Origin: Holtermannia corniformis
Taxonomy: Eukaryota > Basidiomycota > Tremellomycetes > Holtermanniales
DNA: 64,000 bases
Reading direction: 5' to 3'
Assembly (NCBI GenBank): GCA_001599935.1
Contig: BCIJ01000016.1
Coordinates: 4,419 to 68,418 of the forward strand
Shown here: positions 14,160 to 63,524 of the stretch, one piece after another
Numbering within the stretch: position 1 is the stretch's first letter
Layout of the letters: each line of letters starts with the position of its first letter
Program-made: the position numbers and the translations under genes
Notes under the pieces: model-generated
What the model was told of the DNA's origin: nothing
Seen by the model: the letters and a program-made list of their open reading frames with translations, nothing else
Database searches by the model: none

Positions 14160-17100
14160 TTACTCGGCCTTGGCCTCCTCGGGCGCGGTCCTATAATGCG
14201 TCAGTCGTTACCTGCGCAACAGCCACATTGCTACTCACTCGACGTCCGCCTTGGGCTTGTCGGCCTCCTCCTCACCGGCAGGGGCAGGCTTAGAAGCTTC
14301 CTCCTTGGCAGCCTGGACCGGGTTCAACTCGGCAGCCTTGTGGACGGCGTCGCTCTCGGTGTGCTCGCCAGACGGGTTGGCCTCTTTGTCCTTGGTCTCG
14401 GTCGACTCGGTGGCAGCGGCGGTCTCCGCAGCAGGCGCAGCGGGCGCGGCAGCCGGCTCTTCGGCAGCAGGAGCCTTAGTCTCATCGGTGGCGGGCGCGG
14501 CATCGTCAGTCGACTCCGTCTATCATGAGCGTTAGTAGCTACTACAAGCAGGTGGCACCAACACACCTTGCTGGCAAGGGCAGCGTTCTTGGCCTGGGCG
14601 TCCTCGAAAGCAGTCTTGAAGAGCAGGGCGTCTGCAGCGCGTCAGCCTCGACAAATCTGACTAGCACAGTACACCATCGTGTTGGTACGCGCATCGACTC
14701 ACTCTCGGAGTTGCCGAACCGGATCGCGAGCGTCTCGGCCGTTGGCTCGCCCTCGGCAAAGTCGGCGGCAACGTTCCAAACCCAGGATCGGTCAGAGCCG
14801 ACGTTGGGCGCAAGCTTCATGTCGGACGTAACTGGGATGGGTTAGCTTGCATCACTGCGGTTTACTGTTGTATGTTTGCGTGGCGCATGAGATCTGTGTC
14901 AGGCTTGGTGAGGATCTGAGTTCCACGCATGTAGCCGATCGACAGACGCCCTCCGAGCATGTTGAACCTGGCCGAGCCACAGGATCAAGGCTTCACCACT
15001 GGAAGCGGCTGCTGTCTCGCGAACTAACGCTGACGACCTTTCGATGGTGTCGCATCTTCGAAAGCGAGCCGAATGGAGACAGATACGTCTCGGGATTAAC
15101 TGACATGATGGCTTGATCCAATGCTGCAGTCGATGCAGGACGCATCAACTGAGAACCATAACGAAGCCAAAACATGGCGATCTGGTCAAGCTCGTTTGTA
15201 GGACGACCTGGAGCGCATAATCCGCTGCACTAGCAGGCATGCGCAGGATACTTGGGCGCCGACGCCATAGCTCGACTGGCGTAGGCACCGAATTGTACGT
15301 ACGAGAACCTTAGAGACTGAGCGTAGATACACACTCCTCTCTCGGTCAAGAATTGACGAGTAGAGAAGGTGCTACCGTATCTTAGCAGAGTCCAAGCTTG
15401 CGTTTCGTATGTGCATATAGGTTGGCAAGACCTCCGGGGCCGCACGGGCGTCGCGCAAAGTTTGCAACGGAACAGCCGGACCACTCATTCCAGTGTCTTC
15501 TGATACCCGGGCAACCGGGGACTCTTTTGCAGAGCGAAAGCTCGTCTGCCCTCTTTGCTTTGCGTTGGGCTGGGACCGTGCTTAAGGCTGTGGCTCACTT
15601 GCCACAGACAACGAATACATGATCAGCTCGTGACCTGGCACCTGCATCGATCGACGCATACCACAAATAACAGCCGCAGGACCTACAGACCAGGAGACAA
15701 CTTGTCTCGCGGCCAACGTCTCTCCGGCACAGTAGCTGCAATCACGGCGAGCCTCGATACCATAACCGGTGCAACTCGAATCTGCACAGCAGATCCACTC
15801 GGCATACAGGCCGATACTAGACGCATCGTCCATGAAGCAAGCGAAGATCTACGCGTAACGGAACGCAGCGACGCACTTCTGTGCGCAATTGACCTGGTAG
15901 CGACGCACTAGACCTTGACTGATATGATTCGGATAGAATCAGCAAATTCAAATTGAGAACGCGGAACGCTCAAGCTCGGTGTCCCGATTACTCGACGATA
16001 ACGGCCCGTTCCAGCGCACTGCACGTTGCTCGGCGCAGCGCAACCCCCCCCCCCCCCAAAAAAAGAGCCATTGGCGCAGATAAAGATTGTCGTGCAGCTT
16101 GATCTCTGATCCCACCGATACTCAACGCATCGGGTAAGGCTCTGAACGCAGCTGCTCGCTGCAACTTTGCTTGTTGCACGGGCATGGCCATATGGTCACT
16201 CAATCAACGGCACGAGACGGCAGAACGTCGCTGACGAACCTAGCGGGCCCAGCAAGCTTTAGTCCATCGCTCACACCGGCCGATATCGGACGGATCTATT
16301 CAGTGGCAGAAGAGACAGCAGAGCTGTATGCCGCTGCTTGACTTCCTGGATCAGACAGCTCCCTCTCCGTACTTGCCGATGCCCCATGCATCGGTAGATC
16401 GTCAGACACAGAGCTGCTCGCGATCGTAATGACGCGGACAGCTCGCTTCCCTGAGCCGGTCGACGCTCAGGCAACTCGATCAAACCGTCACCGTGTTGAC
16501 TTTACGAACAGCACGGCGTGATCATATAACACCTGACGCTGAAGACACCAGCTGTCCCGCGTGAATACGAACAGCTTTCCCGGCAGGACCGCTGACAAAT
16601 CACAGCTCGTTCTCGGTCGTCGGTCGATGCTTGACGCATCAACCGCGACATCTCAGGAGGTGCGTGCAATGATAGATCATGCCGAAAACTGTGCGTCCAC
16701 CATTACCACTCTGAAAGGTTCAAAGATGAGCCGCAACGTTTAGACGTTGACCGTTTACGCGGCAGCGCCCTTGAGTTGACGTCTTCACACGAGCTACACG
16801 CGGTGCTCCGAGGTACAGTTTAGGTTTCGCACTTGCCGATGCTCCGCGCATCGTTGAGCGCACAACGCGTAGTTGATCACCCATTGACTTGGCGTGCAGC
16901 TCTCACCCTGGCGTTGGCCGATGCGAGCAGCATCGGGCTTGCCACGAAAACTCAAAGGTGCACGACGAAGCTTTGTCACGATGCGATACTTTGCGTCCGG
17001 CATCCGCCAATGTCGTGAAGCAGCACGCCACGATGATCCAACCAAACCACGACAGCGATCAAACACCCCGGCTCCTACGTTCAACGCTTCAATGCACTAC

Positions 17101-17808
17101 GCATCACGCGGTTCGACGTAAGGAGCGTGCCTTCCACGCAAACATCTACGATTCCACGCAATAGCAGGACTCACTCGAATGGTTGGCGCAGACCTTGAGC
17201 GTCTTGTCACGGCGCATGACGAGCCGGACCTTTTGAGTCGCCTTGTGGGCAAGCAGGCGGACGTCGCCGGTACCGCGCTCTTTCCATTCGAGTTCGTCTT
17301 TGGCGAACCGGAAGAGCTTTGCGCGGCTGGGGGTGTTAGCTTGGTTGCGATTGGAGAGAATAATGAAGTGGGGAGGGTGACAACATGAAGAGGATGGAGA
17401 AGTAGGCAAGGATAACATCGACTGACAGCTTGAAGAGAACGTCTTCATCCTCCTCGTGTGTCTTTGCCTCGACTTGTTCAGTCAGCTTGAGCACGGGCTC
17501 GAACTGGGGGTCGGGCTCTTGCTCGGTCTGTGCGGGGGTTGCGTGTTGATGGTATGCCATGCAGTTGTAGACGACGGGTAGCAGGGCACGCAGGAGTCAT
17601 GGCACGCAGGGTGAGATCGATGAGGTGGCGAGAGAAGTCGATTGTCAGCTCTGTTACCACTTGGATGGTTCCGTGCGTCATCAGGTCTGCCTGCTTCTCT
17701 CCTGATCCCTCGCCCTACGAGGCGAGGCCCTTGATAATGCGAGACAGACCGTAGACGCGACATCTTCAGTGCACTCACAGTCTCGGTGACGGCCTCCTTC
17801 TCGGTCAT
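14160..17808 (-). CDS. YRB1: Ran-binding protein 1 (Yrb1/RanBP1)
   Basis: RanBP1 binds Ran-GTP and promotes its release from transport receptors and its hydrolysis by RanGAP in the cytoplasm. The Ran-binding domain is complete across exons: [10 protein letters not shown], then EDEDVLFKL joined to [20 protein letters not shown], then [18 protein letters not shown], then [16 protein letters not shown] and [20 protein letters not shown] long Ala/Glu-rich acidic tail ends [14 protein letters not shown]. The first exon, [10 protein letters not shown], is separated by an intron of about 240 nt. The Ran-binding domain is split by one giant intron at 14832-17174. The neighbouring p24 gene is divergent, 357 bases away. 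Confidence 0.9.
15132..16936. repeat. Seven dispersed GATGC-N5-GCATC hairpins inside the RanBP1 intron
   Basis: Copies sit at 15132-15146, 15812-15828, 16115-16133, 16376-16394, 16626-16640, 16837-16853 and 16918-16936. Each is a 5-7 base-pair stem of the type CCGATGC/GCATCGG around a loop of exactly five bases. The loops differ: AGGAC, TAGAC, TCAAC, CCCAT, TTGAC, TCCGC, GAGCA. Two copies share an A-C mismatch at the same stem position. The copies are not in tandem and their flanks mostly differ. Confidence 0.65.
16044..16064 (+). repeat. Homopolymer C14A7 in the RanBP1 intron
   Basis: Fourteen C are followed by seven A. This is a simple repeat, likely length-variable and prone to sequencing error. 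Confidence 0.85.
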
Positions 17809-18165: not shown

Positions 18166-21100
18166 ATGATCGCACGATCACTCGTCACGGCGGCACTGGT
18201 GGCCATGGCCATGCTCGCACTCGGCGTCGCCGCTCACAGGATCGATCTCCCACCGGGGGGTAAGGAGTGCTTCTTTGAGGACTTGCATACAGAGGACAAG
18301 GTCAGTGGGATGGGTCGGTGGTTGATGCCGCCGCGCGGTGGTCAACGGCCGTGCTGAGATGGTGGTGGTGGTGGTGGTGGTGGTGGTGGTGGTGACGATG
18401 ATGGAGCCGCCATCTCGCCAGGGATGCAGTCAAGAGTACTATGAGCAGTCTCTGCTCTTGGACTTGACTGGCCTGTCGAGTGCTGCGTCCGCGATTCACC
18501 ACCTCGCTGGCGTCTGTGCGGCGCTCACAACAAGACGGCCGCAACATCAGCCTCGCCTCCATCAATCAGAGCTGACGTCTCAGATGACCGTAACCTATCA
18601 AGTCGGCTCTGGCGGCCACCTCGACATCGACTTCTACGTGCGACCGTCTCGTCCCCGCGCCCCTCGCTAACGCTCGCTCGCGCAGCTCACCGATCCAAAA
18701 GGCAACACGCTCTCATCCCAACACAAGCAACCGACCGGAACGTATTCGTTCACGGCCACGATGGACGGCCGGCACGCTTATTGCTTCAGTAACGAGATGA
18801 GCAGCGTGAGCCCAAAGACTCTGAGGTGAGTGACTGGCTGCGTGGCGATCAGGAGGTCGGCTTTGGTGGCGCGACAAGTCCTTGGCCTGATGCGTGCGGA
18901 TTGCGGAGCTGTATCAGCTGGATCGCACATCGCGCACAAGGCCGAGAGACTTTGTGCTGACGGCGCACCATCGCAACGGAACAAGCGGCGCTAGCTTGAC
19001 GCGCGCCCATTCTCTCGCTCAGTCGTCGGTCGCGCTGTTTCAGCTGGCTGACGCGGTGTTCTGAGCTAGAGGAAAGGTGACACGTTCTCGGTAGCGCATC
19101 TCTACGTGCTTGACGATGGCGCTACAGCGTGTCACTAGCGTTGCGAGCAAACGGTGAAGCGGCTGCGCAACCATGGATGTGACTTAGCCCTCGCGTTCGA
19201 CTTAGGGACCAAGCTCTTGTCAAGCTTCCTGGAGGCGATGGAATTCGACGGCGGACAGTCACGTCCTGGCAGCGACTGCGGATACGAGGTATTGAGACAA
19301 TGTGTGCAGCGCTGGCCTTTTGCATCAAGATTGCAGCAGCTGCGACACCTGCGTTACAATCCTGCTCCCAGCACAGGCGCCGTAGCTGCATGCAGGGGTA
19401 GCATCTGCCATCATGATGGGATCACAAGCGCCGAAGGTTGAGCACGTGACGGCCTCTCGCTCGACCGATGGTATAGCTGGTCTGTGGCTACCACTGTGGT
19501 GACTTGGCGACCGAGCCTCGGCTTGCTGCCTTCCGCAGCGCGGGACTGAGGATGTGCAGGCGCAGGCGCTGTCGACAAAGGCTTAGCTATGAGAGCTGCA
19601 ACGCACGAGTCCACCTGATGGCACGCTTTGGCCCGACTTTCCGCTTTCTCTCCGGCTACGATGGATACGGTCATACGAGCTGTGCAGCTCCATCGATGCC
19701 TACGCCGGGCCGGCTTCCGGCCAAGTCAGGAGGATAGCAATATATGGCGCTGATCTGATGGCGAGCAGCCGATTCTTTCGCTACACCAATTGATGAGCCG
19801 TTCGTCCGCTCCTGGCGTTGAATGCGATTGAGAATCAGCTTGCGTCATTCAGATCATCGTCATGAACCACTCTGTGGCACCGGTACCGCGCTGAACTTGG
19901 GATTGCCGATTCTCTTGCTACCCCAGTCGATGAGCCGTTCATCTGCTCGTACAAGCATTGGTACTCGAGAATCAGCTGCGTCTTGGATCATCATCATTGA
20001 CCATGGTGCGACGACTGTACTGCTATCAACTGCCGATATACCTGGCCTCAAGCTATGATCGAGCGAGCTGTCGCAGCTTGATCGAGACCCACTGTGGTCA
20101 GGCTATCCCGCGCTTCTTGGAGGTCCGGGAGGGGGTTCATCCGTCTGCGCTGGCTACGATGACCGCGTTTCCGTCTTCTGTACTCTGGACCGCTAAGCTC
20201 AATGAGCTTAGTCTGTGCCCAGTGAGCGCAAGACCATCAGCTTCGATGGGAATCATAAATCTCCGCGGCAACCTGAGCGCATTGGCCGACCTTATGCTTG
20301 ACGGCATGGCAAGATGAGTCAGTTCCGGGTGACCCCACTGCTCAAGGTGTAGTGATATGCCAAAATCCCCTTTGCGCTTAGGATGCGTTTTAGGGCGTCT
20401 TGGCGCGCTTCGGTAGACGGGTCACTGCGAATCAGCGTGAACTCCATTTATCTTGAGTTCAATTTCATCTAGCCTCCAGACACCAATCTTGAGTTGCATA
20501 CGTAAGGCGTGTACAATTCCAGATGAGGACTAGAGGTCAGCCCGCAGTGTTGTTCGATACCAGTTCAATCAGACCCTAAGCGGCGCTGGTGATAGATTCT
20601 CTCGGCTGGCCTCTGTTCACGTGTCGTGTCGACTGGCGCGGTGTACGGACTGTTTCTATGGGTGGTCGTCTGCGGTCCCTGTGCCAGCTCATTGCCGCGG
20701 CGACAAAGGCGGCTGTGACTTTTGGACGTCATCCTGATCTCAAGGATCAGATGCGTTCATCTGAACAGCAGCACAACTTTGTTCAGGCCGGGGCGCGAGC
20801 TTGGTACAGTGGATTGGCGGATGCGGACATGATTATATCAGCATGTCGGGTTCGACCAACCAGACTCGGACTCGGACTGGCATTATCGTTTCCCTACTCT
20901 GTAGCTGGAAACCAAGCTATTGTTTGGGCATGCAACGAAATGCATTCAGCTCGAACCCGCTAGCTTCGGTCTGATGCTTGTCGACCCGCAGAGCTCGGCC
21001 TTGCGCGAGACCACACTTGGAGTTTGATCGACTGCCAACGTGGCCTTCAAGCATCTCTCCACTGACTACGCCTGCAAAGGCATAGCTGCTGCAGGCTTTG

Positions 21101-22223
21101 CAACGCGAGCTTTGTTCCGTTATCAACGTCGTCACGGCGGTCAATCGGATTCGAAAGCAGCTGTTGAGTTGTCTTCTGTAACGATTCGTCCGCTGTGCTA
21201 CCTAGGTGCCGTTACCAGCGCGCATTCGACGACGGTATCGGCTAGTGAGAGCAGCAGCGTGACATGGGATCGAAGCAAAGCATAAAATGCAGTGTAGTGG
21301 CCATCAAGTCGTCGGTTCACAGCACTTTGAACGAGTCTCTTGCCCACGACTACAGTTGTCACTCCCGCTCAGTCGCTCGACGTCGCTAGTAAGCTATAGC
21401 TGCGAGCGCAGCTGCCACTGCGAACGCAATATCGACTACCCAGAGCGGAGGCTTTCTCATCGGCATGTCGCGCGGCAGACGACCTTGAGCGGCTCGGTTC
21501 TGGCCCAGAGCCATCACAATGAAATGACATGTCCGCGGTCTGGCACATCTGATCACGCCGATCCGACTGGGAATCGGCAGTGCGTGTGACGGCTCAGCCA
21601 GACGTCAGCTTCGTCTAAGCTGATTGGTCCGCCAAACGCTGTCGATCTGCTGGTCAGAGTTGGAAGCACTCTCGGTCTTGGCTTGTGAGCGACAGCGTTG
21701 AACGATACAGTCTGAACGTTACAGCTATACTGCTGGAATGAAGCATGTGCCAATTTATCAACGCACTGACACTCACGTCCCAGCTTCAACGTCCACGGCG
21801 TCCTCTTCATTGAAGACGAAGGCCACATTGCCCCGGTCGAGAACGAGATCCGCCAGCTCAGCTCGGGCTTGCAGGGAGTCAAGGACGAGCAGGAGTACAT
21901 CGTTGTACGCGAGCGGGTCCACCGGAATAGTGAGTCTGCTCTTGTAGGATAACGGCCGAGGGCTGCGAAAGCGCTAGTGTCTCGAAGTGAGAGCTGACAT
22001 TACGCAGCTGCCGAATCAACCGTGAGTCGCGACGGCGTCAAGCTTCTAGGCTCTTTGTGGAATCGAGAGCTCTGACTTGCCAAACGTAGTCCTGACTGAC
22101 ACTTGCCGACAGAACTCGCGCGTCAAGTGGTGGGCCATTGTCCAGGTCGGGATCCTGCTCGCGACGTGCGCCTGGAACGTGCATTACCTCAAGAGCTGGT
22201 TTGAAGTCAAGCGTGTGCTGTGA
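18166..22223 (+). CDS. EMP24: p24 family cargo receptor, Emp24/TMED2 type
   Basis: p24 proteins cycle between ER and Golgi in COPI and COPII vesicles and help select cargo such as GPI-anchored proteins. The exons spell a cleavable signal peptide (MIARSLVTAALVAMAMLALG), then a GOLD domain with ECFFEDL, MTVTYQVGSGGHLDIDFY, DGRHAYCFSNEMSS and SFNVHGV. A coiled-coil neck, EYIVVRERVHRNTAESTNSR, follows, then one membrane helix (WWAIVQVGILLATCAWNV) and a short cytosolic tail, FEVKRVL. The tail resembles the beta subfamily. There are six exons. Introns are 47-280 nt except the giant third intron, 18826-21783, which interrupts the GOLD domain at KTL-SFNV. Confidence 0.9.
18361..18393 (+). repeat. (GGT)n microsatellite in the first p24 intron
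   Basis: Eleven consecutive TGG/GGT trinucleotides lie between exons 1 and 2 of the p24 gene. The array is non-coding in the spliced model. Confidence 0.85.
18826..21783 (+). other. Giant intron of the p24 gene (2958 nt)
   Basis: The donor is GTGAGTGACTGG after the exon ending PKTL. The acceptor is ACGTCCCAG before FNVHGV, with a CACTGAC branch site 15-20 nt upstream. Both flanking exons are needed for a normal GOLD domain, so this is an intron and not a gene break. No ORF resembling a known protein is present. It contains a diverged direct repeat of about 100 nt and several short perfect hairpins, such as CTGATC-TCAAG-GATCAG near 20742. Confidence 0.8.
19769..20002 (+). repeat. Diverged direct repeat in the p24 giant intron
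   Basis: Unit A is 19769-19868 and unit B is 19906-20002. Both start CCGATTCT, share GATGAGCCGTTC, GAGAATCAGC and GATCATCxTCATxxACC in the same order, and differ at many positions between. The two units are about 137 nt apart start to start. Confidence 0.6.
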
Positions 22224-23541: not shown

Positions 23542-24006
23542 TGCGCTAGCAGCAAAGTTAGACCGCTGAGGATGCGTGTGTGACTGCACATACCACGCTA
23601 TACGCTAGGCCGGGTGCTGTACGGATCCTCTAGTCCGAGTGCACGAGCGGTGTGTTGTACAGTGGCGAGAAGGCCTAGTAAAAGGAGCCCGCCTGGGTCG
23701 CGTGCTGTGCGTTAGTGGGTCGGTGGTGCACGCTGCCTGGGCTGAGCCGCGCTGGTGCTGATCCCACTGTACGCTGCGGTTGCTCTCGACTGGTGGTAGA
23801 GGAATGCGCGGGTTAGCAGGTTGCCGGGTGGCGACTGCTAGACGGAGACTGAATCCGTGGATCACTGCCATACTATTGTTGGTTAGGCGCGCGACTAGGG
23901 AAAATAGGCACGCGATTTATCTTTTCTAATTCTTTGACTTTATCCCAGACCGCCGATGCTCCTAGACCGCAAGCTGAGAGCAGGGATCGTCCTCACCGCA
24001 CCAGCC

Positions 24007-27000
24007 ATGGCATTCGCTCAAACAGCATCAAGACTCTTCGGTACGCTGCCATCTCACGCTGACTACATGCTCACCCCGCTAACACCCCAGTGCCCGTCGC
24101 GCTCGCCGCCGCCGCGATCGATGCCTCGCTCTACGACGTGCCAGGCGGCTACCGCGCCGTCATGTTTGATCGCTTCTCGGGCGTGAAACAGCAGGCGACG
24201 GGCGAGGGCACACACTTTTTGGTGCCCTGGCTCCAGAGGGCCATCTTGTATGATGTCAGGATCAAGCCGAGGGTGAGTGGCGATGAGCGAGCGAACCGAG
24301 GAGAGAACGAGCGATCGAAATGAGGAAGAGGGCAAGGTGGGAATGTGTGATCGAGGTCGCTGCTGTGAGCAGTGGTGATCGAGAGATCGAGCGTAGCGCT
24401 GCTTGCGTGTCAGAGAGGATATGACCGAGTCGAATGGTGGTACGGTGAGGAAACGAGGGACGTGCGAGAGCATCGGCACGATCGCGCAGTCGACAGACTG
24501 AACCAGAGATGACGAGTCGCTCGGACACAGACTTGGCAAGGCCGATCCTATAGGCGCATGAGCCAGAGTCGACCAGAGTTGCCAAGTCTGGGTCTTGATG
24601 CCCTTCGTTGACTCTGGGCATGTCAGGTCGCGTCATCGATGTCGGATGGATCTTCGATTCGGTACACTGTCGAGGATCAGCGCGCGAGGCGATATCGCCT
24701 AGGAGCCCACGATCTAAGCAACATACTGATCCAAGCCCCGCATCGACCGTGATACACCACGATACGAGGTCGCGCTGTCGATGTGTGATGTTGTGGTCGG
24801 CCATACCGGTAGCCTAGCGACAATCGGCTCGCGACGCGTTTTCGCCCACCTGATCCGTCTCGGAATTCGCACGTTATCGATCCTACGCGATACGAGCTTC
24901 TGCACTCGCTACGTTCGGTAGCCGGTCGAGATTCGGCTCGAGGCGCTCTCGCCTATCGACGTTCTCGCAGTCTACCGAATCGATCCGCTGCGTCCGATAT
25001 CCGCGCCAGTGTGCTGCGAGCTGCATTCGTCTCGACGTGTAGACTGTCAAGGACGGATTTTCAAAGGCGTATGGGCTTCGATAGTCTTGGCTTGATAGTC
25101 TAACCTGGAGACATAATGGCGTTTTGTGGCTTGGCGACTCGCAGCTGAGATTGCCGATTGAGCAAGGTGTCAGTAGACTGGCGCACTCGTCGTAGACTCT
25201 ATTCTACAGACAGACTCTTCGTTTCACAAGCGGCACCGTGGGCGCGCTTCAGACCATGCAAGATCAGGTTCGAGGCGGATGGTCTTTAGACTCGCTATTT
25301 CGGTCGTAGTGGACTGCTCGAGGTGGCTGTCACAGGCGCATAAGCCTGCCCAAACCCATCGCAGAACAGTCTGTTGTTCAACCTTGTTGGCCGAATAGCT
25401 GGGTGAGGATAGTTCCAACCTGCGAGGATTGAGCTACGTGCTGTCCGTTTCATAGTGCAACTCGATCGCTGTTGCCCAAGTCTGTGTCAGCGCCACCGCG
25501 TTCGGCACTACTGCATTAGTGGACTGAGTGCCGTTGACGCTCCATGCTTGCAGCTTTGCAGCTTTTTAGAGCAAGTACGCCGCTACATTGGCTAAAGTGG
25601 TGCTATCGTTGTTGCGTCATCTTTGAGCCGTATATCGACTCACCGACTGGATCGTGGAACGAGTCGGTCTGTATCGATGAGCAAGTGACACGGGAACGGA
25701 TTTCGAGCTACAGCAGCTTGCAGAGTCGGCTGGGCCAGATGGACAGAGAATCGGCACACTTTGTGGCATCGAGCTTGAGGCGTACCCAGTCCTCAGTCTG
25801 TCTTCTTGTTTCTATCGGCAGAGATCGTGGCACAGCAATGCGCAAACGGCGCGCTTGGCTGTACCCGGCGGACTGTCGTCGAACGGTACCCGAGGCGCTC
25901 GCCTCGTCCCGACGCTGGGCTAATATGCTGGAGGAGTAACGAGCAAGAAAGGGTTTGACACGAACATGATCGAGCGAACTGAGAGCTAGCTGGCGTCTGT
26001 CGAGCGAGATCGTAGCCGTATCAGCCTTGGAAATTCTCCACTGCCAGTCTACGGCTGCTCTCTGCTTCAACATGTCAGTACAGCCAACCTCGTCTACGTG
26101 GCCGCGGTCACTTGGTGGGCATCTCTCTTGATCGTGGCCGAAGATGATGGATCGTTGGGCCATGAGAAGTCATCAGAGCCAGCGGCAGCTGTAGGGGTGT
26201 ACTCAACAGCGGGGTAAGCATCTACCTCGGGTACGATGTATCCTAGCTGCTGTCTTGGAAAGTATCATAAACTGCTGTCGTACTCGACGGATGGCCGTGC
26301 CGGTCAATCGCAGCAGCCGACAGCAGCAACAAACGAGCATATCGATGCTGTCAAGCCACTCTCGGCTCTGCATCAAGTGGCAGGTCTCTTCCAGTCGTAG
26401 TAAACATTCGAGTCGCTTTGCTACCAGCACAATTGCGGCTGTGTTGCGGCTGAATTCGGGATCATCTTGTGCTTCCAGGTCCTCCGTCGCAGCTGTAGCT
26501 GTGCCTTTGTTGTCTCCGCATCGAGTCATTGTGCCTCGGTTATCAGGGTTCTTGAATCCTAGACATCACCTTGAGACGGACCGCCGGGGTCCGCTTGTTT
26601 CGTCTCAACCAACACGACTCGCAACGCTAACACCTGATAGAATATCTCAACGACCACCGGCAGCAAGGACATGCAAATGGTCTCGCTCACCCTCCGCGTC
26701 ATGTCCAGGCCCGACACCAACCACTTGAGCAAGATCTACCAGAACCTCGGTTTGGAGTGAGTACTTTTTCTTCCGTGATTCTGGCTATGTGGCCCGAGCT
26801 GCGCGATGCAAGCGCAGCTTCTTTTTACGTTACACCGTCGCGTATGCGGACGAGTGCGCTCGTTAGCTCGGTCGTCAGACATGGCCGCGTTTTGGCCAGT
26901 CACGCACGGGGTTATATAAGGAAGTAGCGTCCTTTCGCGGCACCTTCACCCACAGTCCCGCGTATTCACTAGACGTCTCCTACCTTCTGTCGGAAACATC

Positions 27001-28421
27001 GTGAACATCTGCCCAGGCGCTGGCATGTCTAGGGAGCACTTTGCGTCAGCCTATGCTATGTGTAAGGCGGCCTGTGCTTCTTATTGGAAGCACGCGCCGC
27101 AAGCATTGGCGAGGACACAGTTGGCATAAGTCCTCCACGGCGTCGATGCATTTGCTGCAATGCTATAAACCTAATGCTGACAATTCCCAGCTACGACGAG
27201 CGTGTGCTTCCCTCGATTGGAAACGAAGTCCTCAAAGCTACTGTCGCGCAATTCGACGCTGCTGAACTCATCACCCAGCGTGAAGTGGTACGTACAATCC
27301 CTTCTGCTGTTAGCGATGGCGTGACTAGGCCACCACCCAGCCCGGCTTTCGATCTTCTGTGTAGCAGAGATTGACACGACGTGATAGGTCTCCGCTCGGA
27401 TCCGTGAGGATCTCTTGAACCGCGCAAAGGAGTTTAACATCATGCTCGAGGACGTGTCAATTGTGAGTCGAACGCTTGTCCGGGTCTGTATCATCTGACG
27501 CTGATGGTTTGCAGACACACATGACGTGAGCACGCGTTGCAGTGCTTGAGCATTATACTAATCAACTGCCTCTCCCACATTCCACACTGGCCAACCGCTT
27601 CCCTGTTGACCACCTCGTCTCGCGATTGATGCACTAGCTTCGGCAAGGAATTCACTTCGGCCGTCGAGCAAAAGCAAATCGCGCAGCAAGACGCCGAGCG
27701 CGCCAAGTTTGTCGTCGAAAAGGCCGAGCAGGAGCGCCAAGCGGCTGTCATCCGCGCAGAGGGCGAAGCCGAGGCCGCCTCGACGATCTCAAAGGCGATT
27801 GACAGGGCTGGCGAGGCGTTTGTGATGTTCAGGCGGATCGAGGCTAGTCGAGAGATCGGTGAGTGTTTTGTGAGACTGGCATTGCGGGCTAGTCCGGTCA
27901 TCGCGGACGTGCGCTGTTCAGCGTGGAAACCAAGGTCTGTCACCAGTTGTGCGATGATACGACCTGGTTGGCGTTCGACTGATGCCCGCTCGGTTCGGTC
28001 GTCAGTGTGCGGTGCTGGGATGTGCATCTGCCTGACGGAATTTGCTTCTCCGCACGGTCTCAACGCGTCGCACGACATTGCTCAGGGTGTCCTAGCGGCC
28101 GGGAACAGTGTTTCTGCATGCCATGCACGCAGTGGGCCCCTGGCTCGGACACTGATTCAAATGCTGGAAATTGCTTGGCTTCGCCATGTACTTGCAATCC
28201 TGCTTCCTGCGCGCCTTTAAGCTACCTGCGAGATTGGCGAGGTCTGGTCTGGAGACCACTCCTGCAAATCGACTCTGTTGGCACAACCAGCCCTTTGTTA
28301 CTGAAACGGATCCCATGCTGACGCCATCACAGCCAACTCGCTCAGCCAGAGCCGAAACGTCACCTATGTCCCGGCTGGTAACAGCAACCTCCTCCTCCAG
28401 GTCCCTCAACAGGGGCAGTAG
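24007..28421 (+). CDS. PHB1: Prohibitin 1 (mitochondrial inner-membrane scaffold)
   Basis: Prohibitin 1 assembles with Phb2 into ring complexes of the inner mitochondrial membrane. Exons: 24007-24040, 24091-24272, 26641-26756, 27191-27287, 27388-27462, 27515-27525, 27638-27858, 28333-28421. The family signature is intact: [82 protein letters not shown] and [20 protein letters not shown], ending [10 protein letters not shown]. Exon 6 is only 11 nt. An in-frame ATG at 23956 could extend the N-terminus by 17 residues. Intron 2 is giant (24273-26640), and introns 3 and 7 are 434 and 474 nt. Confidence 0.93.
24273..26640 (+). other. Giant intron of prohibitin (2368 nt)
   Basis: It runs from a GTGAGTGGCG donor after IKPR to an AACGCTAACACCTGATAG acceptor before [10 protein letters not shown]. 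No recognisable gene is inside. It carries three AGGCG...CGCCT palindromes (24687-24700, 24941-24954, 25891-25906). It also has a nested inverted repeat at about 26571-26611: outer arms TTGAGACG/CGTCTCAA enclose CGGACC-GCCGG-GGTCCG. Confidence 0.8.
26913..26920 (+). promoter_or_regulatory. TATA-like box inside prohibitin intron 3
   Basis: TATATAAG lies in a 434-nt intron, about 105 nt upstream of a short ATG-started frame. It could serve an internal promoter or be fortuitous. Confidence 0.3.
27025..27129 (+). CDS. Possible 34-residue ORF nested in prohibitin intron 3
   Basis: The frame begins [17 protein letters not shown] and ends at TAA before the intron acceptor. It has two cysteines and no recognisable motif. 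It is listed only because a TATA-like box precedes it. Coding capacity is unproven. Confidence 0.15.
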
Positions 28422-30373: not shown

Positions 30374-30380
30374 CTGCTAG

Positions 30381-52800: not shown

Positions 52801-52805
52801 GCCAG
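52801..52805 (+). repeat. 5-bp target-site duplication, left copy
   Basis: GCCAG directly precedes the left LTR and is repeated at 58178-58182 directly after the right LTR, as expected for integrase-mediated insertion. Confidence 0.9.
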
Positions 52806-52942: not shown

Positions 52943-53018
52943 ATAGCAAAAGCGCAATTCTAGCTACCAAGAGCACATCCTAGATCAGCAGGACGAGCTC
53001 CATCTGTCAGTACCAAAA

Positions 53019-56000: not shown

Positions 56001-57209
56001 CGCATCTTCCTGACCATCGTGGCAACAGATGACCTCGAAGTTCATCAAATGGATGTGGTCTCAGCATTCCTGAATGGCGTATTGGACGAGGAGATCTACA
56101 TGCAGGCCCCGCTGGGGTACACCCTGGCGGCAGGCACGAACTGCGTGAAGCTCATCAAGTCGCTCTACGGCCTGAAGCAGGCTGGACGCACGTGGTGGGA
56201 GGCTCTTGATGGCCACCTACACCGAATGGGTTTTCGACGAGGGTCCGAAGACTGGGGGATTTATCTCCGCAAGGGAGCGTACCTCCTAGTCTACGTGGAC
56301 GACATCCTCGTAGCCGCACCAACCCTCAGCGAGGTTACCAGCATCAAGACGGAGCTGGCGAAGCGCTGGGAGATGACCGACGCTGGCGAAGTGGGATTCG
56401 TCCTAGGCCTGAGCGTCACAAGGAACAGGCAAGCCCGGACCATACAGCTTAGCCAGACGGCGTACATCGAGAAAGTACTTGGCACATTTGGCATGCAAGA
56501 CGCGGCAACAGTGACGACGCCCTGCGAAGGCGGGACCAAGCTCGTGAGCGAAGGCAAGCCGCACGCAGGAGGCGTCGAAGAGTACCAGAAGCTTGTAGGC
56601 AGCCTCATGTGGGCGGCCATGGGCACTCGACTCGACTTGGCCTACATCGTGGGGAACCTGTCAAAGTACAACGCGAAGCCAACGCACGACCACTGGCAAG
56701 CAGGCAAGCGTGTGCTGAAGTACCTCAAAGGTACTGCTGCGCACGGCCTGACGCTTGGCGGCAAGTGGCAAGCAGAGCTGGAAGGGTTCAGTGACGCAGA
56801 CTGGGCGGGAGACGCGGACACGCGTCGGTCGACCACGGGATACGTCATACGCTTCCGCGGCTCGACCGTAAGCTGGGGATCGACCCGGCAGAAGACGGTT
56901 GCGCTGTCAACGGTGGAGGCAGAGTACATGGCAATGGCCGAAAGCATCAAGGAAGTCGTCTGGGTCACCCAGGCGGTACGGGAGTTCGGCGTGGAGGTTG
57001 CCGCACCAGTGACGGTGTGGGTCGACAACCAGGGCGCACAGAAACTCGCCAGCAACCCAGGGTTCCACAAGCGGACCAAGCACATCGACATTCGGCATCA
57101 TTACTGCCGAGACAAGGTGCAGGACGGCACGATCAGGCTCGAGTACGTCGAGACGCTGGCACAGAGGGCCGACGTCATGACGAAAGGCCTGTGTGAGGGC
57201 CTCGTCTAG
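53019..57209 (+). CDS. Copia gag-pol polyprotein
   Basis: 1396 residues in one frame. The Gag-like N-terminus ends in two CCHC zinc knuckles starting at about C281 (CGKCGLTSHTTSDC) and C301 (CFKCGQKGHIKRQC). The aspartic protease has DSG at 355. Integrase has an HHCC zinc site from about H494 (WHLRLGHM) and the triad D557, D621, E657 with the usual 35 residues between the last two. A Glu/Pro repeat linker spans about 815-850. Reverse transcriptase includes CKWVYKTKRD, HQMDVVSAFLNG and YVDD at 1092-1095. RNase H includes DADWAG from D1259, STVEAEYMA and KHIDIRHHYCRD. It makes the virus-like particle and carries out reverse transcription and integration. Confidence 0.96.
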   Translation: MSTETTFARTNQVPRLTGLETFYAWKIAMEDALDMNRLHGVVSGHEKRPVAEDYLGEVKIEIEISGEKGTEAAEAATETLRELSTAQRLELGKVQRLWDDRNRQAMGLMRATVSEAIRFDLMHCTTAVEMWLEIEASHNLKQSDYADEIAVELTNMYLQDGGDMEAHLAKYQQLIMRARAAGLNYSPYEVCQKFTRTLDISYRDIVRDFKALPEAEKTFSRLRALYNSEIAFRAHHAKKNAQMVLFTQNREKPKRGKTGGSKTEKGEKGASAPDQKEKEKCGKCGLTSHTTSDCKADRMTCFKCGQKGHIKRQCKGATEGTALIAALVDLDGLMGVSAKSVALKAEGDKVHWVVDSGATHHLSADLNLISDRQKLAVPMTFGLADASATIKATERGSARHRLACGTPLTFQDVYYVPNTRVNLLSAGTLVRRGWEVQLNDQGGYLGKSGVKIPLQRVQGLWVVTLSRHEPLPTEDTGLTMVSMHKNVDTLDGWHLRLGHMGVTTIKALAQEGKIEISGAEEYKGTDCDTCQISKATRLPFGNQTVKATQPLEIIHSDLAGPLTPTRTGKRYYVTFIDDYTHIVFTMTLVQKTAQEVLRCFALFAKATELMLDKRVKILRTDGGSEYLGQAWESYLLASGILHQSTTAYTPQLNGVAERMNRTLKEMASAMLIGAKLPGEYWGEAIVYASYLTMMVKGVDGKTAWEWAYKRKPDLSKMYTFGTPVWVRIPSETRTKSDLTTPKARKGRLFGISPNTSGWIVMDDATGKLGASRDVVFTSAPPMAPTEDPAAPAVVPAPQAHIEEIPDVPAVMPEGERAAEAELEPEPEPEAEPEAPEPEAEEPEPEPEQAPEGVPELVLVPPPMAPIRRSSRIADKGEVHLLSEWTSEDLALAAAAIADEDPATYAQAMASSLSEEWDKAMQKELETVAKAKTWKDAKLPQGRRAVGCKWVYKTKRDQDGDIIKHKARIVAKGYSQVPGQDFQETYSPVARLSSLRIFLTIVATDDLEVHQMDVVSAFLNGVLDEEIYMQAPLGYTLAAGTNCVKLIKSLYGLKQAGRTWWEALDGHLHRMGFRRGSEDWGIYLRKGAYLLVYVDDILVAAPTLSEVTSIKTELAKRWEMTDAGEVGFVLGLSVTRNRQARTIQLSQTAYIEKVLGTFGMQDAATVTTPCEGGTKLVSEGKPHAGGVEEYQKLVGSLMWAAMGTRLDLAYIVGNLSKYNAKPTHDHWQAGKRVLKYLKGTAAHGLTLGGKWQAELEGFSDADWAGDADTRRSTTGYVIRFRGSTVSWGSTRQKTVALSTVEAEYMAMAESIKEVVWVTQAVREFGVEVAAPVTVWVDNQGAQKLASNPGFHKRTKHIDIRHHYCRDKVQDGTIRLEYVETLAQRADVMTKGLCEGLV

Positions 57210-57214
57210 AGGGG
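57205..57214 (+). other. Internal polypurine-tract-like copy at the pol stop
   Basis: TCTAGAGGGG spans the pol stop codon. The identical 10-mer abuts the right LTR at 58050-58059, where it serves as the polypurine tract. Confidence 0.5.
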
Positions 57215-57436
57215 ACGATGACCCGGGGAGACTGAGGCGAGATCGGCGAAGATCTACCTCCGAAGGGCGGGACTCTCGATTGCGCAGCGGAAAGCGAGGT
57301 TCCGCACTACGAGGAACCGGGAGGATCGACGAGCGAGAATAGAGATAGAGCACTATAATATTCGAGCGATGTAGATACAACAGGAGACAACGCNGAAGAC
57401 GAGGGGCGCGGCGGCGCAGCCGCAGCGCACAGACAG

Positions 57437-57452
57437 TGGTGCGAAAGCACCA
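57437..57452 (+). other. GNRA-type hairpin in the copia tail
   Basis: Stem TGGTGC/GCACCA closes a GAAA tetraloop, a GNRA loop. The same stem is kept in the remnant at 1012-1027. Confidence 0.4.
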
Positions 57453-57586
57453 GTGGCACTCTGAGCGCCGCGCAGCGGCTACTCGCCACGTGACACCGCC
57501 ATAGGCGTGACAGCCTGGCAGCACCGCTGCACAGAGAGCACATCGCAGCGCTCGGACTGGCGGCAACGATCAAGGCGGGAGCGTCA

Positions 57587-58054
57587 ATGGCGGCACTCGT
57601 CTTCAGCGCGGTCCTCGCCACACCAGCCTCGACTCAGTGGGATAACCCAGCGATCTTAGCCCGAGGCCCTGGGGTAACCCAGTGCCCGATGGTGCGACGT
57701 GATGAGGAGCCGCGCGATGACGAGGAGACGCGAGATGAGATGAGGGCGGAGTGGCAAGACAGGCAGCGTCAGCTTCGACCCTGGGGCACCCAGCAGTCTA
57801 AGCCCGAGGCCTGGGGCACCCAGCACCTCGAGACGCGCCAGCTCGCGCACGCAGACGGTCAAGACGATCAAACCAAACGCACGGACACACTCGAGATGGA
57901 CGTACTCAAGACCCCAGCCAGCGGCCGACTCAATGGCCTCGATACGGTACTTGACGCGAAGGAAGCTCGGCTCCAAGGAAATCCTGCAGGACGGTCAGCG
58001 CGAGCCGCGAGAGGGACGTACATGATGGTGGACGACGGTCGGCGCACGATCTAG
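57587..58054 (+). CDS. Possible accessory ORF in the copia tail
   Basis: A 155-residue frame between pol and the right LTR. The N-terminus MAALVFSAVLATPASTQ looks like a short signal or membrane segment. A repeated (P)WGTQ motif and charged Asp/Glu/Arg-rich stretches follow. The stop overlaps the polypurine tract. No similarity is recognised. It could be a host fragment or a non-coding frame held open by composition. Confidence 0.3.
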   Translation: MAALVFSAVLATPASTQWDNPAILARGPGVTQCPMVRRDEEPRDDEETRDEMRAEWQDRQRQLRPWGTQQSKPEAWGTQHLETRQLAHADGQDDQTKRTDTLEMDVLKTPASGRLNGLDTVLDAKEARLQGNPAGRSARAARGTYMMVDDGRRTI

Positions 58055-58059
58055 AGGGG
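58050..58059 (+). other. Polypurine tract of the copia element
   Basis: TCTAGAGGGG lies immediately 5' of the right LTR, the expected place for plus-strand priming. Confidence 0.7.
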
Positions 58060-58177
58060 TGTTGGATGAGATCGAGCACCAGAGGGGTTGAGCGGCGATA
58101 CGGCGTTATTGTAGAGTGAAAACTGCCGCTGCCGCGCCGGCAGCGATGTGATCACCAATCCAAGCCTACATTCAACA
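58060..58177 (+). repeat. Right LTR of the copia element (118 bp)
   Basis: Identical to the left LTR and followed by the GCCAG target duplication at 58178-58182. Confidence 0.95.
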
Positions 58178-58402
58178 GCCAGCCCAACTCTGGACTTCGG
58201 GGGTCAAGTGTCTAGCTGGGTTAAGCGGCTTAACGGGTTGGCTCGCTCACCCTCTTCCCGGCTGGCGCAAGTACATAGATGGTGATGGATCGCTTCCACT
58301 CTACAGAGTGGACAGACGGCCGACCGTACCAAGGAAGCCATGCATGAATCTACATCGTGAGGGAGGTACAACGTTTGGACTGTAGAGCGGATACAGAGGC
58401 GA

Positions 58403-61400
58403 TCACGAGCTTGCGCTATACGGGCTCGTCGGCACGCCGAGTATCTCCAGAGAACTGGACATCGTCAGCTGACAGCGCTGACCCGGCAGCTACTTACAGC
58501 CTGTTTGGCCTTTTCCGAGTGATCACCTCCGGCTTCACGGTCGATCTGATGGCAGATGAACAGCGCATCGGCACTGGGACTCGTCAGCGACACTCGCATC
58601 GTCTGGGATTACGACTCACGCATCACCTAGAACTCCGGCGCCCGCGCGAACACACAGGAACGGAACACCGCCGCACAACAGAGCTGCAAGAGGCGCATGG
58701 GATGGTGCGCTGAGGGTATGCGCCGCATATACATAGCCCGCCGTGGCAGTGCACAGTGCCAGTGTTGTCGAAGACAGGGTGAGTAGCAGCTTGATCAGAG
58801 TGTCTGTCATCTGTCAGCGATGTTCACTCGCCACAGCTTGAGCGTACAGTCAAGCAGCTTGCCAGCCTTACGTCGCCCCGCGAGTCCGACTGCACGCCTT
58901 GCACTGGGCCAGAATGAATCACCGGTGATCCCAACGTAGACGAGTGCGTAGCCGTTGAATTGATCGAGCACGCCAGCGATGACCGTGAAGACGGGTGTGA
59001 GGTTTGACAGGAAAGCCAGTGCGGATGGCAAGAGTTGTGCCCTGGGATGCGTGACCTGTATATCAGTCAATACAATCCCCAGCAAGGCACCCGGCACTTA
59101 CTCGACGAGCCTCAGCTGCGGTACGACCGACCATGCGAGCGGTCGCGACAATCAAGGCGCCAAGACATATGCTTCCCAAGCTTGTGCCTGTTGCTCGATG
59201 GACTGCAGCTTGTGTGATATCTAGGGCTTGTGGGTGATCCGGATCGTCCCTGTCACCATCAGCTCCAATGTCTGGAGGTGGATCGCCTGGCGCACCTGTG
59301 GAAGTACCATTCACCAACGATAGCCGCTACCGCCACTCGGCCAACGCCTCGGACGACGCCCCATGTCCAGAGCCAGATGAGTGTGACAAGGAACACTGCC
59401 CAACCGGCATACGGTCTTACGTGCCACACCCAAGTGTCCTCGCGTCTATACGTCGATCAGCTTGCAGTGAACACGCATCATGCTGTAAGACTTACGGATG
59501 GCGGTAGTAACCGATGAGTAGTAGCCGCAGCGCAAGGGTAAGGAAAGGCAGACTGATCAGAGCGAATGCACCAAGCAAGATAGGGGTGAGGAGAAGCATT
59601 GGCGGGTGCGATAGCAGTAGCGTTGTAGACAGCTGACACATTGTCAGCTGGGAACATCAGCAGGGATCTTTGCAACTCACCTCCACGACCGCAACTGTGC
59701 GCTCGAGCCGCTTGCGGCGAAGCCAGACCAAACGCGCAAAGAGGGCAGCGAACGCCAAGAGTAGCAAGCTGAATAGCCTCAAGCCCGTTGTTCCCCACCA
59801 AGTGCCCTCAATCTTCTCACCATCCTCGCCATCGCCGATCTCCCCAAACGAGCCAACAAACGCCGACCAAGCACAGACAAACAAGCCAAAGGGAACCAGC
59901 ACGGCCGTGGCCGTCAGCACGGGCCGGACGGTGTGCTTCAACATGAAGAGGAATGCGACGGGGAACGCAAGGGATATGAGGAGCAGCAGAGAGAGCATTG
60001 GGATCATGTGGAGCATCGTGGTGAATGCCGTTGGCGACGGTGGGGTAGTTGGGTCTGGTCGGGGCGCTGGATCCGTCGAGCCCCACACGAAGAGCAGCGC
60101 GACAAAGATGAAGATGAGGGATGTGAGCCAGAGTGCGAGGAAGCCAGAATCTATCACTGATCAGCAGCCGCATGTATCAACGCGCACAAGACTCACCCTT
60201 GAACTTTCGTAGCACAATGCCTCGGCCATCACTCCAGACACCGAAACGCGCTTGGTACACCTCGAGCCGCACAGGTATTCTCTCCCGGCCGCGCCCTTCC
60301 AGATCCTCTTCACCAAGCAGCGGATCGTCCAGCGCTTCGCCCGGCGGAGGTGCCATGCCCAGATGAGGGAGATCATGGCGACCTCGTCGGTCTGAAGGCG
60401 ATGGCGGATCTGATGGCTTGTCTGACAGCAGCGAGCCTTCTGAATCGGAATCATCAAGCTCGTACGCGGCGGTTCTGCGATTCCGGCCGTGTTTGCTAGA
60501 TGATGCCGCAGGCGATCCTGGCGGTGATGGCGTTGCAGAGGACGATGAAGAGGGTGGGAAGATGCTTTGATGCGCGAGCCAGCCTCTGTTGGTACGCGTT
60601 GTCGGTTGCGGTTCGATACTGCGCTCTTTGCCCTTGAGCGACTTGCGCGGTGATGCAGGTGGTGAAGCTTCCGGGTCTTGGAACAGCAGTTCCGAGGCTG
60701 AAGGTAGTGGCGCATCTTCTTCGTCTTCATCTAGTAAATCCATATCCGGCGGCGAGCCACGGAGATGTGGAAGTGAAGCCTGCGAAGAGGACGAAGGCGA
60801 ATTGAGGTAAGGATCTGGGATATCCTGGTGGAACAACTGAGGGCGTCAGCTTGCCGTTTTGAATTGATGGAGGCAGTAAAGAGGATTACGGATTGGAGAG
60901 GAGAGAGGAACCCTGCCGCCAACCGAGAGCGAGAGTCACACAATCAGATTGCTGAGCACATTTCGCGGGACAGCAATGGAATGAACCAGAACAACAATGT
61001 AAATGACACACGAAGCTATGGCGTCGTGATATACAATGTGTGTGGGTCCGGGGGCAGAGGATCTGCAGGATGCGATCCAGGCAGCGCACAGGGACGAGCG
61101 TTGCCAAGGTACGACACCAAGCTTGGCGGTCAACCCCGAAAAAATCGCAGCGCTCGGCTGCTATTTGGAGCACGCCGCAGCGCTGATCATATTCGTCGTC
61201 AGATCCGCCAAGGCACTGATCGTTACACACATGCGGAAGGAGATGTCAATCATAGTCAAGCAGAAATCATCCAAGATCGCGGTCGTGCAGCAACGTTGTC
61301 CTTTTGTAGTCTGCATGACCTGCCAATCCGACGTTGACAAACAGAGATCGGACGCTCGGGACTGTGCTGACGGAGACTCCCGTCTCGACGACCCAGCCAC

Positions 61401-63524
61401 GGTCGACCGTCGAAGTTACTCTGACCGTAGTTGCTGCACAATCGCCAGCTATCAAGCAGGGCAGACTCAGCTGCAGTAACAACGCGCTAGACATGCCCGG
61501 ATCTCTCGCAGCACGCCGCCATGCAGTTTCTATAGCTACTTGTGCGGAACGCATCGTGATAGCTGGATTGCGACGCGACCTGCTGGCAGCAAGCGAGTAC
61601 GCATCCACGAAATCTCCTAGCGTGATCGTACATTCAGCTACAAGCACTGTCGATGCGTTGTGCAGAGTGAATCCGCCAATCCAGCCCAGTCTGGCAAACT
61701 CAGGAATTTCCGCGATAAGCAGTCCGCCAGGGTAGAGCTCGGATCGGTTACAGACCGCGATACGGGTTGGCACAGCTACCGTTCCCGCGACCTGAGCGGC
61801 AAAAGCCGAGCCGACGGGCTGTGAGAATGAAGAAGCTGTCCTACCGACACATGTCCGTATTCTGATTGATGATCGTGTGGCCTGGTGAGCGTCGAGTTGT
61901 CGCCTCGACGCCAATGATCTCACGAGCAACGGACCGATCGAATACAAAGCCCTCGAGCCTGCAGACAGACTGGCGAACTACAGCGAACTTGGCGCGATCA
62001 AAGACCAAGCTGATGTGTGCCTGCAGAGTCGCTCAAGCCACAAATATGCAAGGGCATGGACGCACTGCAATCTGTAAGACATCTTGAATGATGCAACAAG
62101 GCAGACTTGAAGACACGATGCGTCACTCGACTTGCAGACATTGAGCTCTACCAGTGCAAGTCTGGTAGTCTACGCGGTCAAGCGCCGCGATAGTCGTTTT
62201 AACAACCGAGTCAAGGCTTGCTGGCTGTCTGTGTGAGCCTGGGTAGTACACCAAAAGCAGCTAGCGCGGTCCAAGGTGTTCGTTTGCCGTGATGGAATCA
62301 ATCGTGACGGTCGTAGCTTCAGCTCTTGGACCGGGAAGCACTCTGACAGCATCTATCTGCGGGACCGAGTACGCACCCGCGAGTCAGAGAGCTGTAGGGT
62401 TCGAGACTACGTCTGGCTGTGTTCATCAGACGGCAATGATCGGTCCGTTCATCGAATGAGGCATCCGTTAGCCACATTACTGGCCGAGGCACCTGCCGCG
62501 ATGTCTGCGTCCGACTCGAGCGCAAAGTACTTTAGCTATACCCGAGGACGACTACGATCGGCGATGCGATAAAGGCGATAGCTCGGTATAGGTGGTGCAC
62601 ACTGCGACGTCGTCGGCTGTGAGACAGATCCACGGGGCCCAGACTGACTTGCGACAGGCGCGACACTTGCGTATCACACAGGCACAACCGAATACAAACA
62701 GAGCCGGTTAGCTATACCTAAGGAAGACTGCCATCGGCGATGCGATGAAGCGACCTCCGAAACAATAGCTGATGCGCACTGTGACGTCGTCGGGTGTTGT
62801 TGAAGACCTTGAGTCACGGAACGTGTTGACTCTGATATCAGAAAGCAGACACCAGAGACGAACGGGTCAAGATCTGGAGGCGCTGCAAACGCAAGATGAC
62901 CGATTTGGCTCGCACATTTGCCAGCTGTGGCTGATGAGGACTATGGCTGCGTGTGCGGTTCACGCTATGATGAACTGAGCTTGTGCACAGCGCGAGGCGG
63001 TCCGCCGGTCCGCAGGGTAGCCATGGCCTCGCTCAGAATGTACGAGCATCGCCGTGCGATGCGACCGGGTCTACGCGGCGAAGGGAGCTGCAGCTGTACG
63101 AGATGCACATAGGCATGTACGACAAAGTGGAATCGCAGCTGCAGCTCGTGCACCGTCGAGGCCAACGGCGCTGGGTGGCTTGACATGGGGTGCGCGACCA
63201 GGGGAGTGAAGTAGCTCATCGAGCGAGAGGATCGACCCGCAGTATCGTACCTGCAAGTCTTTCCTGCGATCAGGGAGCTATAGCAGCGCCTGCCTGTCGG
63301 CCTCGTCGTTATCGCCGCAACCGTGTCCAACGACGCGTGCCGTATCCGTCTCCAGTAACAGTCCTCTCCTCCTTTCTTCCCCGTCCTCTATCCCTCGGAT
63401 CCCCATCGACGGATGCTTGTCACCCTGACGAGGAGCATCACTCACCGGGCTCTGTGCAGTGTCGGCGTTGTTGCTGAGAAAGCGGCTCGCGTACGCCGAG
63501 AACGAGGGGTGCTTTGCGTCCATC
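58403..63524 (-). CDS. CTL/PNS1-like multi-pass transporter (choline transporter-like family)
   Basis: Exon 1 (63524-63446) starts MDAKHPSFSAYASRFLSNNA. After a 2609-nt intron, exon 2 begins LFHQDIPDPYLNSPSSSSQA and encodes an acidic, Ser/Pro-rich cytosolic region. Membrane helices follow: DSGFLALWLTSLIFIFVALL, MLSLLLLISLAFPVAFLFM, LVPFGLFVCAWSAFVGSF and more. Family signatures are GTWWGTTGLRLFSLLLL, VGEWYFHR, NGYALVYVGITGDSFWPSAR, and near the end LGDAADALFICHQIDREAGG. The end is either 58465 or, if the GTAAGT donor near 58494 is used, 58403. The family is linked to choline or other solute transport at plasma or vacuolar membranes; the substrate here is not shown by sequence. Confidence 0.8.
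60837..63445 (-). other. Giant intron of the CTL gene (2609 nt)
   Basis: The donor GTGAGTGATG follows TAQSP and the acceptor, preceded by GCTGACG, reads CCCTCAG before LFHQDI. Both sides are in phase. No known protein is encoded inside. It contains a diverged direct repeat at 62532-62620 and 62708-62797. Confidence 0.75.
62532..62797 (+). repeat. Diverged direct repeat in the CTL giant intron
   Basis: Two units of about 90 nt share TTAGCTATACC, ATCGGCGATGCGAT, GATAGCTxGxT-like spacing and GCxCACTGxGACGTCGTCGG in the same order, 176 nt apart start to start. Confidence 0.55.

Follow-up and report, generated by a model that had tools for sequence, protein, structure and literature searches.

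Why does a genome whose sampled introns have a median length of 47 to 48 nt carry introns of 2 to 3 kb, and what kind of introns are they? The question is raised by a 64,000-nt stretch of the tremellomycete fungus Holtermannia corniformis (contig BCIJ01000016.1, here C16, positions 4419 to 68418), referred to below as the window, in which an earlier note had described four genes with exactly one giant intron each. The genes encode RanBP1, a p24/EMP24 protein, prohibitin, and a CTL/PNS1 choline-transporter-like protein, and positions given without a contig are those of the window. A two-strand gene finder, self-trained on the long open frames of the 20.2-Mb, 55-contig genome, iterated, and given none of the note's coordinates, was run on C1:200001-300000, C4:200001-300000, and C16 up to 98418. 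It called 689 introns with a median length of 48 nt and a consensus of GTRAGT-like donor, GCTGAC branch site, and CAG acceptor, and it called all four giants with boundaries identical to those described (2343, 2958, 2368, and 2609 nt). When 40 kb of C2 was added and the set was limited to genes with at least 300 nt of coding sequence and introns without N, the resulting 325,399 non-N bases held 757 introns with a median of 47 nt and a 95th percentile of 93 nt, 96.8% of them under 120 nt, which bears out the description of a small-intron genome. Twenty-four of the 757 were at least 120 nt long and six at least 1 kb, of which five were judged credible; all five lay on C16, a crowding that is a biased figure because the window was picked for its giants.

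The RanBP1 giant (14832..17174, minus strand, 2343 nt, phase 1, GTGAGT...GCTAAC...CAG) interrupts a six-exon gene model at 14160..17560 on the minus strand, the true 5′ end of which is uncertain, with a small upstream model at 17715-17808. The Ran_BP1 Pfam domain (residues 31-152) runs across the junction at residue 95-96. At 16044-16064 the intron holds 14 C followed by 7 A, a tract that is possibly mutation-prone or assembly-sensitive. The p24 giant (18826..21783, plus strand, 2958 nt, phase 2, GTGAGT...CTGAC...CAG) lies in a six-exon plus-strand model at 18398..22223, and the EMP24_GP25L domain (residues 38-187) spans its junction at residue 103. The 5′ end of this model is incomplete, as the first 22 profile positions are missing and a further model is found upstream of it (18166-18357); a perfect 35-nt (TGG)n run (18360-18394) is located near the 5′ exons of the gene. 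The prohibitin giant (24273..26640, plus strand, 2368 nt, phase 0, GTGAGT...GCTAAC...TAG) belongs to an eight-exon plus-strand model at 23956..28421, and the Band_7 domain (residues 45-224) continues over its junction at residue 89. Finally, the giant first intron of the CTL gene (60837..63445, minus strand, 2609 nt, phase 0, GTGAGT...GCTGAC...CAG) falls in a 10-exon minus-strand model at 58416..63523. It lies upstream of the Pfam domain, and the exon ends on its two sides (SAYASRFLS... and ...LF...DPY) can be aligned with tremellomycete homologues, the best matches of the protein being from Kwoniella, Saitozyma, Naematelia, Cryptococcus, Tremella, Vanrija, and Naganishia (the top scorers about 50 to 60% identical, none identical), so that the protein set searched held no close relative of the species. 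Thus, the giants are flanked by in-phase conserved exons, as had been claimed, and each is the only giant of its gene, the other introns measuring 47 to 100 nt in RanBP1, 48 to 91 nt in p24, 43 to 50 nt in CTL, and 50, 434, 100, 52, 112, and 474 nt in prohibitin. The good donors, branch sites, and acceptors ascribed to all four were likewise present. We conclude from the sequence that the four are real introns.

Giant introns were also found beyond the window. Just past its end, the gene finder called a 1696-nt intron (C16:69067-70762) in the gene for glucose-6-phosphate isomerase (GPI), of which the window still covers the first exon (63874-63895) and, from 63939, the beginning of the second; the PGI Pfam domain spans the junction, and the same gene holds a 283-nt intron with GTGAGT and CTAAC. 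Moreover, nine Pfam families were searched exon by exon across the whole genome, and gaps were recounted between neighboring exon matches that lay in profile order within 6 kb of each other and at least 30 nt apart, giving counts that are rough because small exons and weakly matching ends are missed. Gaps of at least 900 nt separated four of eight ordered proteasome exon pairs (25 matches) and 2 of 18 Ras pairs (44 matches), while none was seen among 49 kinase pairs (148 matches, with 126 of 216 candidates scored), where the largest gap was 705 nt. Mitochondrial carriers (78 matches) showed one clean gap of 910 nt, which was judged by eye and without the recount because the carrier domain repeats. 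The six wide gaps were then modeled as genes, and each gave a giant intron: 2519 nt in a PRE1-like, 2718 nt in a PUP1-like, 1973 nt in a PRE8-like, and 1001 nt in a PRE7-like proteasome gene, 1539 nt in a Rho-type GTPase gene, and 1109 nt in a Rab7-type GTPase gene, all six names being presumptive. Five of these six proteins were scanned, and each contained one continuous Pfam domain; in the sixth, of the Rho type, Ras profile positions 22-90 and 91-159 flank the gap. Together with the four window introns and that of GPI, the giant set comprises 11 introns of 1.0 to 3.0 kb, and 9 of the 10 scanned proteins showed an unbroken Pfam domain over the junction, the tenth being CTL, which rests on the homologue alignment.

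Several other candidates were set aside. A 1088-nt call on C2 had a weak donor and a 107-amino-acid model, a 2608-nt call on C16 had the weak donor GTACAT and contained N, a 2730-nt call on C4 was mostly N, a 771-nt call on C4 was under 1 kb, and lone long introns on C1 and C4 fell within 19-amino-acid models. A 1633-nt kinase pair on C1 joined exons that were not in profile order, the 910-nt carrier gap was kept out of the 11 as exon matches only, and the MFS search (9 of 165 candidates scored) was uninformative and went unused. The giants of the C16 genes lie mostly early in the coding sequence, an impression on which no 5′ bias is claimed. We conclude that giant introns, which had been noticed in one 50-kb stretch, are indeed rare but are not confined to it, as seven more lie outside the window and the set is spread over several contigs.

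The giants share major-type spliceosomal features, namely, GT-AG ends, the host donor consensus, and CTRAC or a close variant (CTCAC or CTGAT) upstream of the terminal AG. The donor was strict: 10 of 11 giants used GTGAGT, compared with 149 of 741 introns under 250 nt (20%; p = 1.3e-6), and the remaining giant used GTCAGT. The bias was also found in the six giants from the family search considered separately (5/6; p = 0.0016). The branch site CTAAC was more frequent as well, in 5 of 11 giants versus 51 of the 741 introns under 250 nt (p = 6e-4). We note that the 434-nt (26757-27190) and 474-nt (27859-28332) introns of prohibitin both combine GTGAGT with CTGAC, and thus, the strict donor is not limited to kilobase introns.

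Inside the giants, sequences resembling splice signals were scarce on the sense strand. With the intron ends trimmed, CTRAC occurred 20 times in sense and 51 times in antisense orientation (p = 3e-4), CTRAC followed by YAG occurred 7 and 28 times, respectively, and the six family-search giants gave 9 and 26 occurrences of CTRAC (p = 0.006). GTRAGT was found 0 times in sense and 3 times in antisense, compared with an intergenic density of 0.36 per kb (Poisson P = 3.4e-4). In addition, T exceeded A on the sense strand in all 11. Checks for stepwise removal, both of low power, found zero sense-strand sites of the zero-length-exon type expected in recursive splicing (shuffled mean, 0.75) and two short internal donor-acceptor pairs of the twintron type (shuffled mean, 6). 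The idea of premature polyadenylation countered by U1 protection was rejected, as AATAAA was present 0 times on both strands and GTGAGT occurred 0 times in sense and 3 times in antisense, with no sign of U1-rich protection. With their strict GTGAGT, more frequent CTAAC, and sense-strand shortage of decoys, the giants therefore look like old one-piece introns. We conclude that they are very probably old, single spliceosomal introns excised in one step.

Why such introns stayed long is a separate matter. One explanation combines the strict sites and the purging of decoys with a length retained, in housekeeping genes of biased codon use, for the sake of regulatory sequence, and a narrow balance of probability seems to us to lie with it. 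Strong pairing with U1 and U2 would let far-apart intron ends meet, and selection would clear internal decoy sites, such that excision would be a single step. Much less certainly, length may be retained for cis-regulatory sequence or regulated retention in housekeeping genes with biased codons, here those for proteasome subunits, prohibitin, RanBP1, GPI, and small GTPases, and unneeded intron sequence elsewhere may have been trimmed to a minimum. Consistent with hosts of this kind, four of the five giant-intron genes on C16 rank 9, 10, 11, and 15 of 95 in codon bias by effective number of codons (ENC), and the six family-search genes were more biased than 89 background genes (C3, p = 4e-4; ENC, p = 0.027). 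Across all genes, the median length of the introns correlated with C3 (rho = 0.32; p = 0.002).

A close rival is that the giants merely persist: they would be the few at the far end of a wide spread of lengths, enlarged by occasional insertions and local duplications, not yet eroded and doing nothing except being spliced, with strict sites and purged decoys being the survival needs of any long intron. Long introns were found at about 0.9, 1.0, 1.1, 1.5, 1.7, 2.0, 2.3, 2.4, 2.5, 2.6, 2.7, and 3.0 kb (the 0.9-kb size being the carrier gap, read from exon matches only), a series without a clear gap, as neutral persistence would have it. Half-octave bins from 512 nt upward held 1, 1, 1, 1, 3, and 1 of the 757 sampled introns, one of them not credible and in a sample whose window was picked for giants, and a distinct size peak at 2 to 3 kb is not established. 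The earlier note's own counter-possibility, a smooth spread of lengths that would make such sizes commonplace, was thus half borne out: the sizes run on without a clear gap or a proven second peak, but they are rare. Growth by duplication has left possible traces in the form of decayed local direct duplications of about 50 to 130 nt in 3 of 11 giants, which were located at 19768-19897 and 19905-20031 in the p24 giant (130 nt, 68% identity, offset 137), at 62532-62620 and 62708-62797 in the CTL giant (90 nt, 74%, offset 177), and at three places in the GPI giant (offsets 287 to 316). No direct self-duplication at E <= 0.01 was found in 29 intergenic pieces, which are shorter than the giants. 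Recurrent expansion, which had been proposed, is therefore possible, but the duplications are too little to account for the length. The base composition of the giants, which is much the same as in short introns and between genes, and their want of a shared motif, known noncoding RNA, or distinctive structure also fit neutral persistence. Two observations run the other way. With 96.8% of introns under 120 nt, there seems to be a pressure to shortness that the giants have escaped, and wide gaps are spread unevenly over gene families (four of eight pairs in the proteasome versus 2 of 105 in the other six recounted families; p = 1.5e-4, compared after the hits had been seen). We regard neutral persistence as a serious possibility that falls somewhat short of probable, and we lean slightly to regulatory retention over it because nearly all other introns are minimal and the giants lie mostly in codon-biased housekeeping genes.

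A number of results weigh against retention for regulatory content. What the purging of decoys demonstrates is splicing of the giants, not a use for what they contain. The searched families were of our own choosing and the proteasome contrast was drawn post hoc, and gaps of at least 900 nt were absent from TCP1 (0 of 20 pairs; 38 matches), HSP70 (0 of 9; 20 matches), actin (0 of 5; 19 matches), and E2 enzymes (0 of 4; 19 matches). By ENC, CTL is among the least codon-biased genes, the PUP1-like and Rho-type genes lack strong bias, and over all genes it shows no correlation between bias and the length of the longest intron (rho = 0.04); moreover, proteasome and Ras genes may be codon biased with or without giants. 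The signature itself is less than exclusive. The share of GTGAGT was 14 to 27% in length bins up to 120 nt and 67 to 86% in three longer bins (n = 8, 9, and 7), where the figure for 120 to 700 nt may be inflated because the gene finder calls a long intron only where its sites are strong. The CTRAC asymmetry in the window four alone was 10 sense to 22 antisense (p = 0.05), and neither CTCAC nor GTGAG differed between strands inside the giants. Among 356 pairs of 5-mers, CTGAC ranked 6 and GCTGA 5 in strand asymmetry, and thus, other words are equally skewed. The absence, already mentioned, of a detected shared motif, conserved structure, or known noncoding RNA counts here too. That the giants are functional regulatory devices in a few housekeeping genes, several of them for proteasome subunits, acting for instance through regulated excision or through control sequences within the intron, with a strict splice code of their own and shielded from decoys, we consider rather unlikely.

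In other organisms, kilobase introns without coding content often host noncoding RNAs, and the giants could be host introns for undescribed RNAs of a small nucleolar RNA-like, small, or long noncoding type. In favor of this idea, all six giants folded (6 of the 11) had, over their full length, a folding energy lower than the average of six dinucleotide-shuffled versions. Local folding energies lay slightly under those of shuffles with little difference between the strands, at mean z scores of -0.44 for sense, -0.39 for antisense, -0.20 for intergenic, and -0.19 for coding sequence. The giants had been suggested as host introns, and no known RNA family appeared in them: nothing within the window reached an Rfam gathering score, and up to E = 1 the stretches containing all 11 introns gave two weak matches to bacterial small RNAs, far under the gathering scores and both in window introns, the GPI and six family-search stretches giving none. 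The richness in hairpins and internal repeats that had been noted was weak, as z scores against shuffles for the window four (hairpins, 2.9, 1.9, -1.6, and 0.5; repeats, 2.6, 2.4, 4.2, and 2.1) fell within the range of 2.4-kb tiles of the window (-1.8 to 5.5 and -0.3 to 9.8, respectively). Two further ideas were rejected: matched intron ends did not pair clearly better than mismatched ones, and the 1.4-fold excess of direct 7-mers within 200 nt in giants was equaled in coding sequence (1.4- to 1.5-fold) and in part in intergenic sequence (1.05- to 1.5-fold). We conclude that there is a small chance that the giants are hosts of noncoding RNA.

It is very improbable that the giants are miscalled and conceal internal exons, nested genes, or a fusion of two genes by the model. 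The gene finder did yield a few short models when run on the isolated introns, but Pfam domains are unbroken over the junctions, the CTL exon ends are conserved in homologues, and branch-site words are scarce on the sense strand. Moreover, the best coding segment of the giants scored 5.5 to 10.5 nats, a level indistinct from that of intergenic DNA (4.9 to 11.6 nats) and below the 5th percentile of real 300- to 600-nt exons (17.8 nats), in agreement with the claim that the giants lack genes.

Each of the window four matched the genome only once at E <= 0.001, namely, at itself, in a search that passes over simple repeats and words of very high frequency; the other seven giants were compared with the sampled stretches. 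No two of the 11 were similar at a score of at least 20, as had been noticed for the window four. Intron-resident mobile elements or introner-like insertions, delivered repeatedly, are thus the least credible source of the giants despite the similar sizes of those in the window and the presence there of a copia-type long terminal repeat (LTR) retrotransposon, as no second copy of the window four was found (which refutes the idea for them at the sensitivity tested), the 11 share nothing detectable that would make them a class of element, and nothing inside them scored as coding for a mobility protein.

The copia-type element itself (52805-58178) is bounded by two identical direct repeats of 120 nt (52805-52924 and 58059-58178) and has a 1420-codon open frame, measured from stop to stop, and the Retrotran_gag_2 and RVT_2 domains are found in two separate pieces; from the identical repeats and the long frame, the insertion is probably recent. 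Blocks 83 to 93% identical to its 3′ part occur at 880-1088. Elsewhere, a local duplication (33578-33711 and 34597-34733, 88 to 92% identical) overlaps two small minus-strand open frames (33651-34046 and 34652-35074) with no Pfam match, and an additional 48-nt repeat pair is located at 34482 and 35530.

Comparison with known systems places the giants among long-intron minorities. Introns of the related fungus Cryptococcus neoformans are described as mainly ultrashort, averaging 56 nt, with a minority that is long, and those over 500 nt as being spliced less efficiently in the wild type than any other size group, seemingly bar those under 40 nt (PMC11913375). Of the introns found in that species, 95% were below 100 bp, the limit set to discard exceptionally long introns (PMC2397502), and the 95th percentile here is 93 nt. 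H. corniformis appears similar in that short introns dominate and few are long, whereas the 1- to 3-kb introns, splice signature, and host genes described here do not feature in the passages of PMC11913375 on which we draw. In Drosophila, splice-site information is reported to be higher at very long and very short introns (PMC1431713). The stronger splice sites of the very long introns here resemble that report. Long introns are common in Drosophila, whereas here giants are rare and their donor is near invariant. In Saccharomyces cerevisiae, the introns of ribosomal-protein genes form a longer minority in highly expressed genes, measure a few hundred nucleotides, and reside in an intron-poor genome. 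The giants are likewise a longer minority concentrated in highly expressed genes, but their genome is intron rich and they reach 1 to 3 kb. Introner elements occur as many near-identical copies. They resemble the giants as a second intron class in one genome, but the giants are mutually unrelated, and no second genomic copy was found of those of the window. Several intron classes and a recent intron invasion are reported for Micromonas (PMC3879977). No report of such introns in Tremellomycetes was found in the open-licence literature searched, with the terms used.

We conclude that the giant introns are a set that deserves explanation and not a new kind of element. They would offer a test case for how introns fifty times longer are handled by a spliceosome adjusted to a length of 48 nt, and for whether strict donors and the loss of decoys suffice. 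If selection keeps long introns, then a genome of minimal introns would be a clean natural experiment, and the introns that stayed long would mark the genes in which intron content or the time taken for excision counts.

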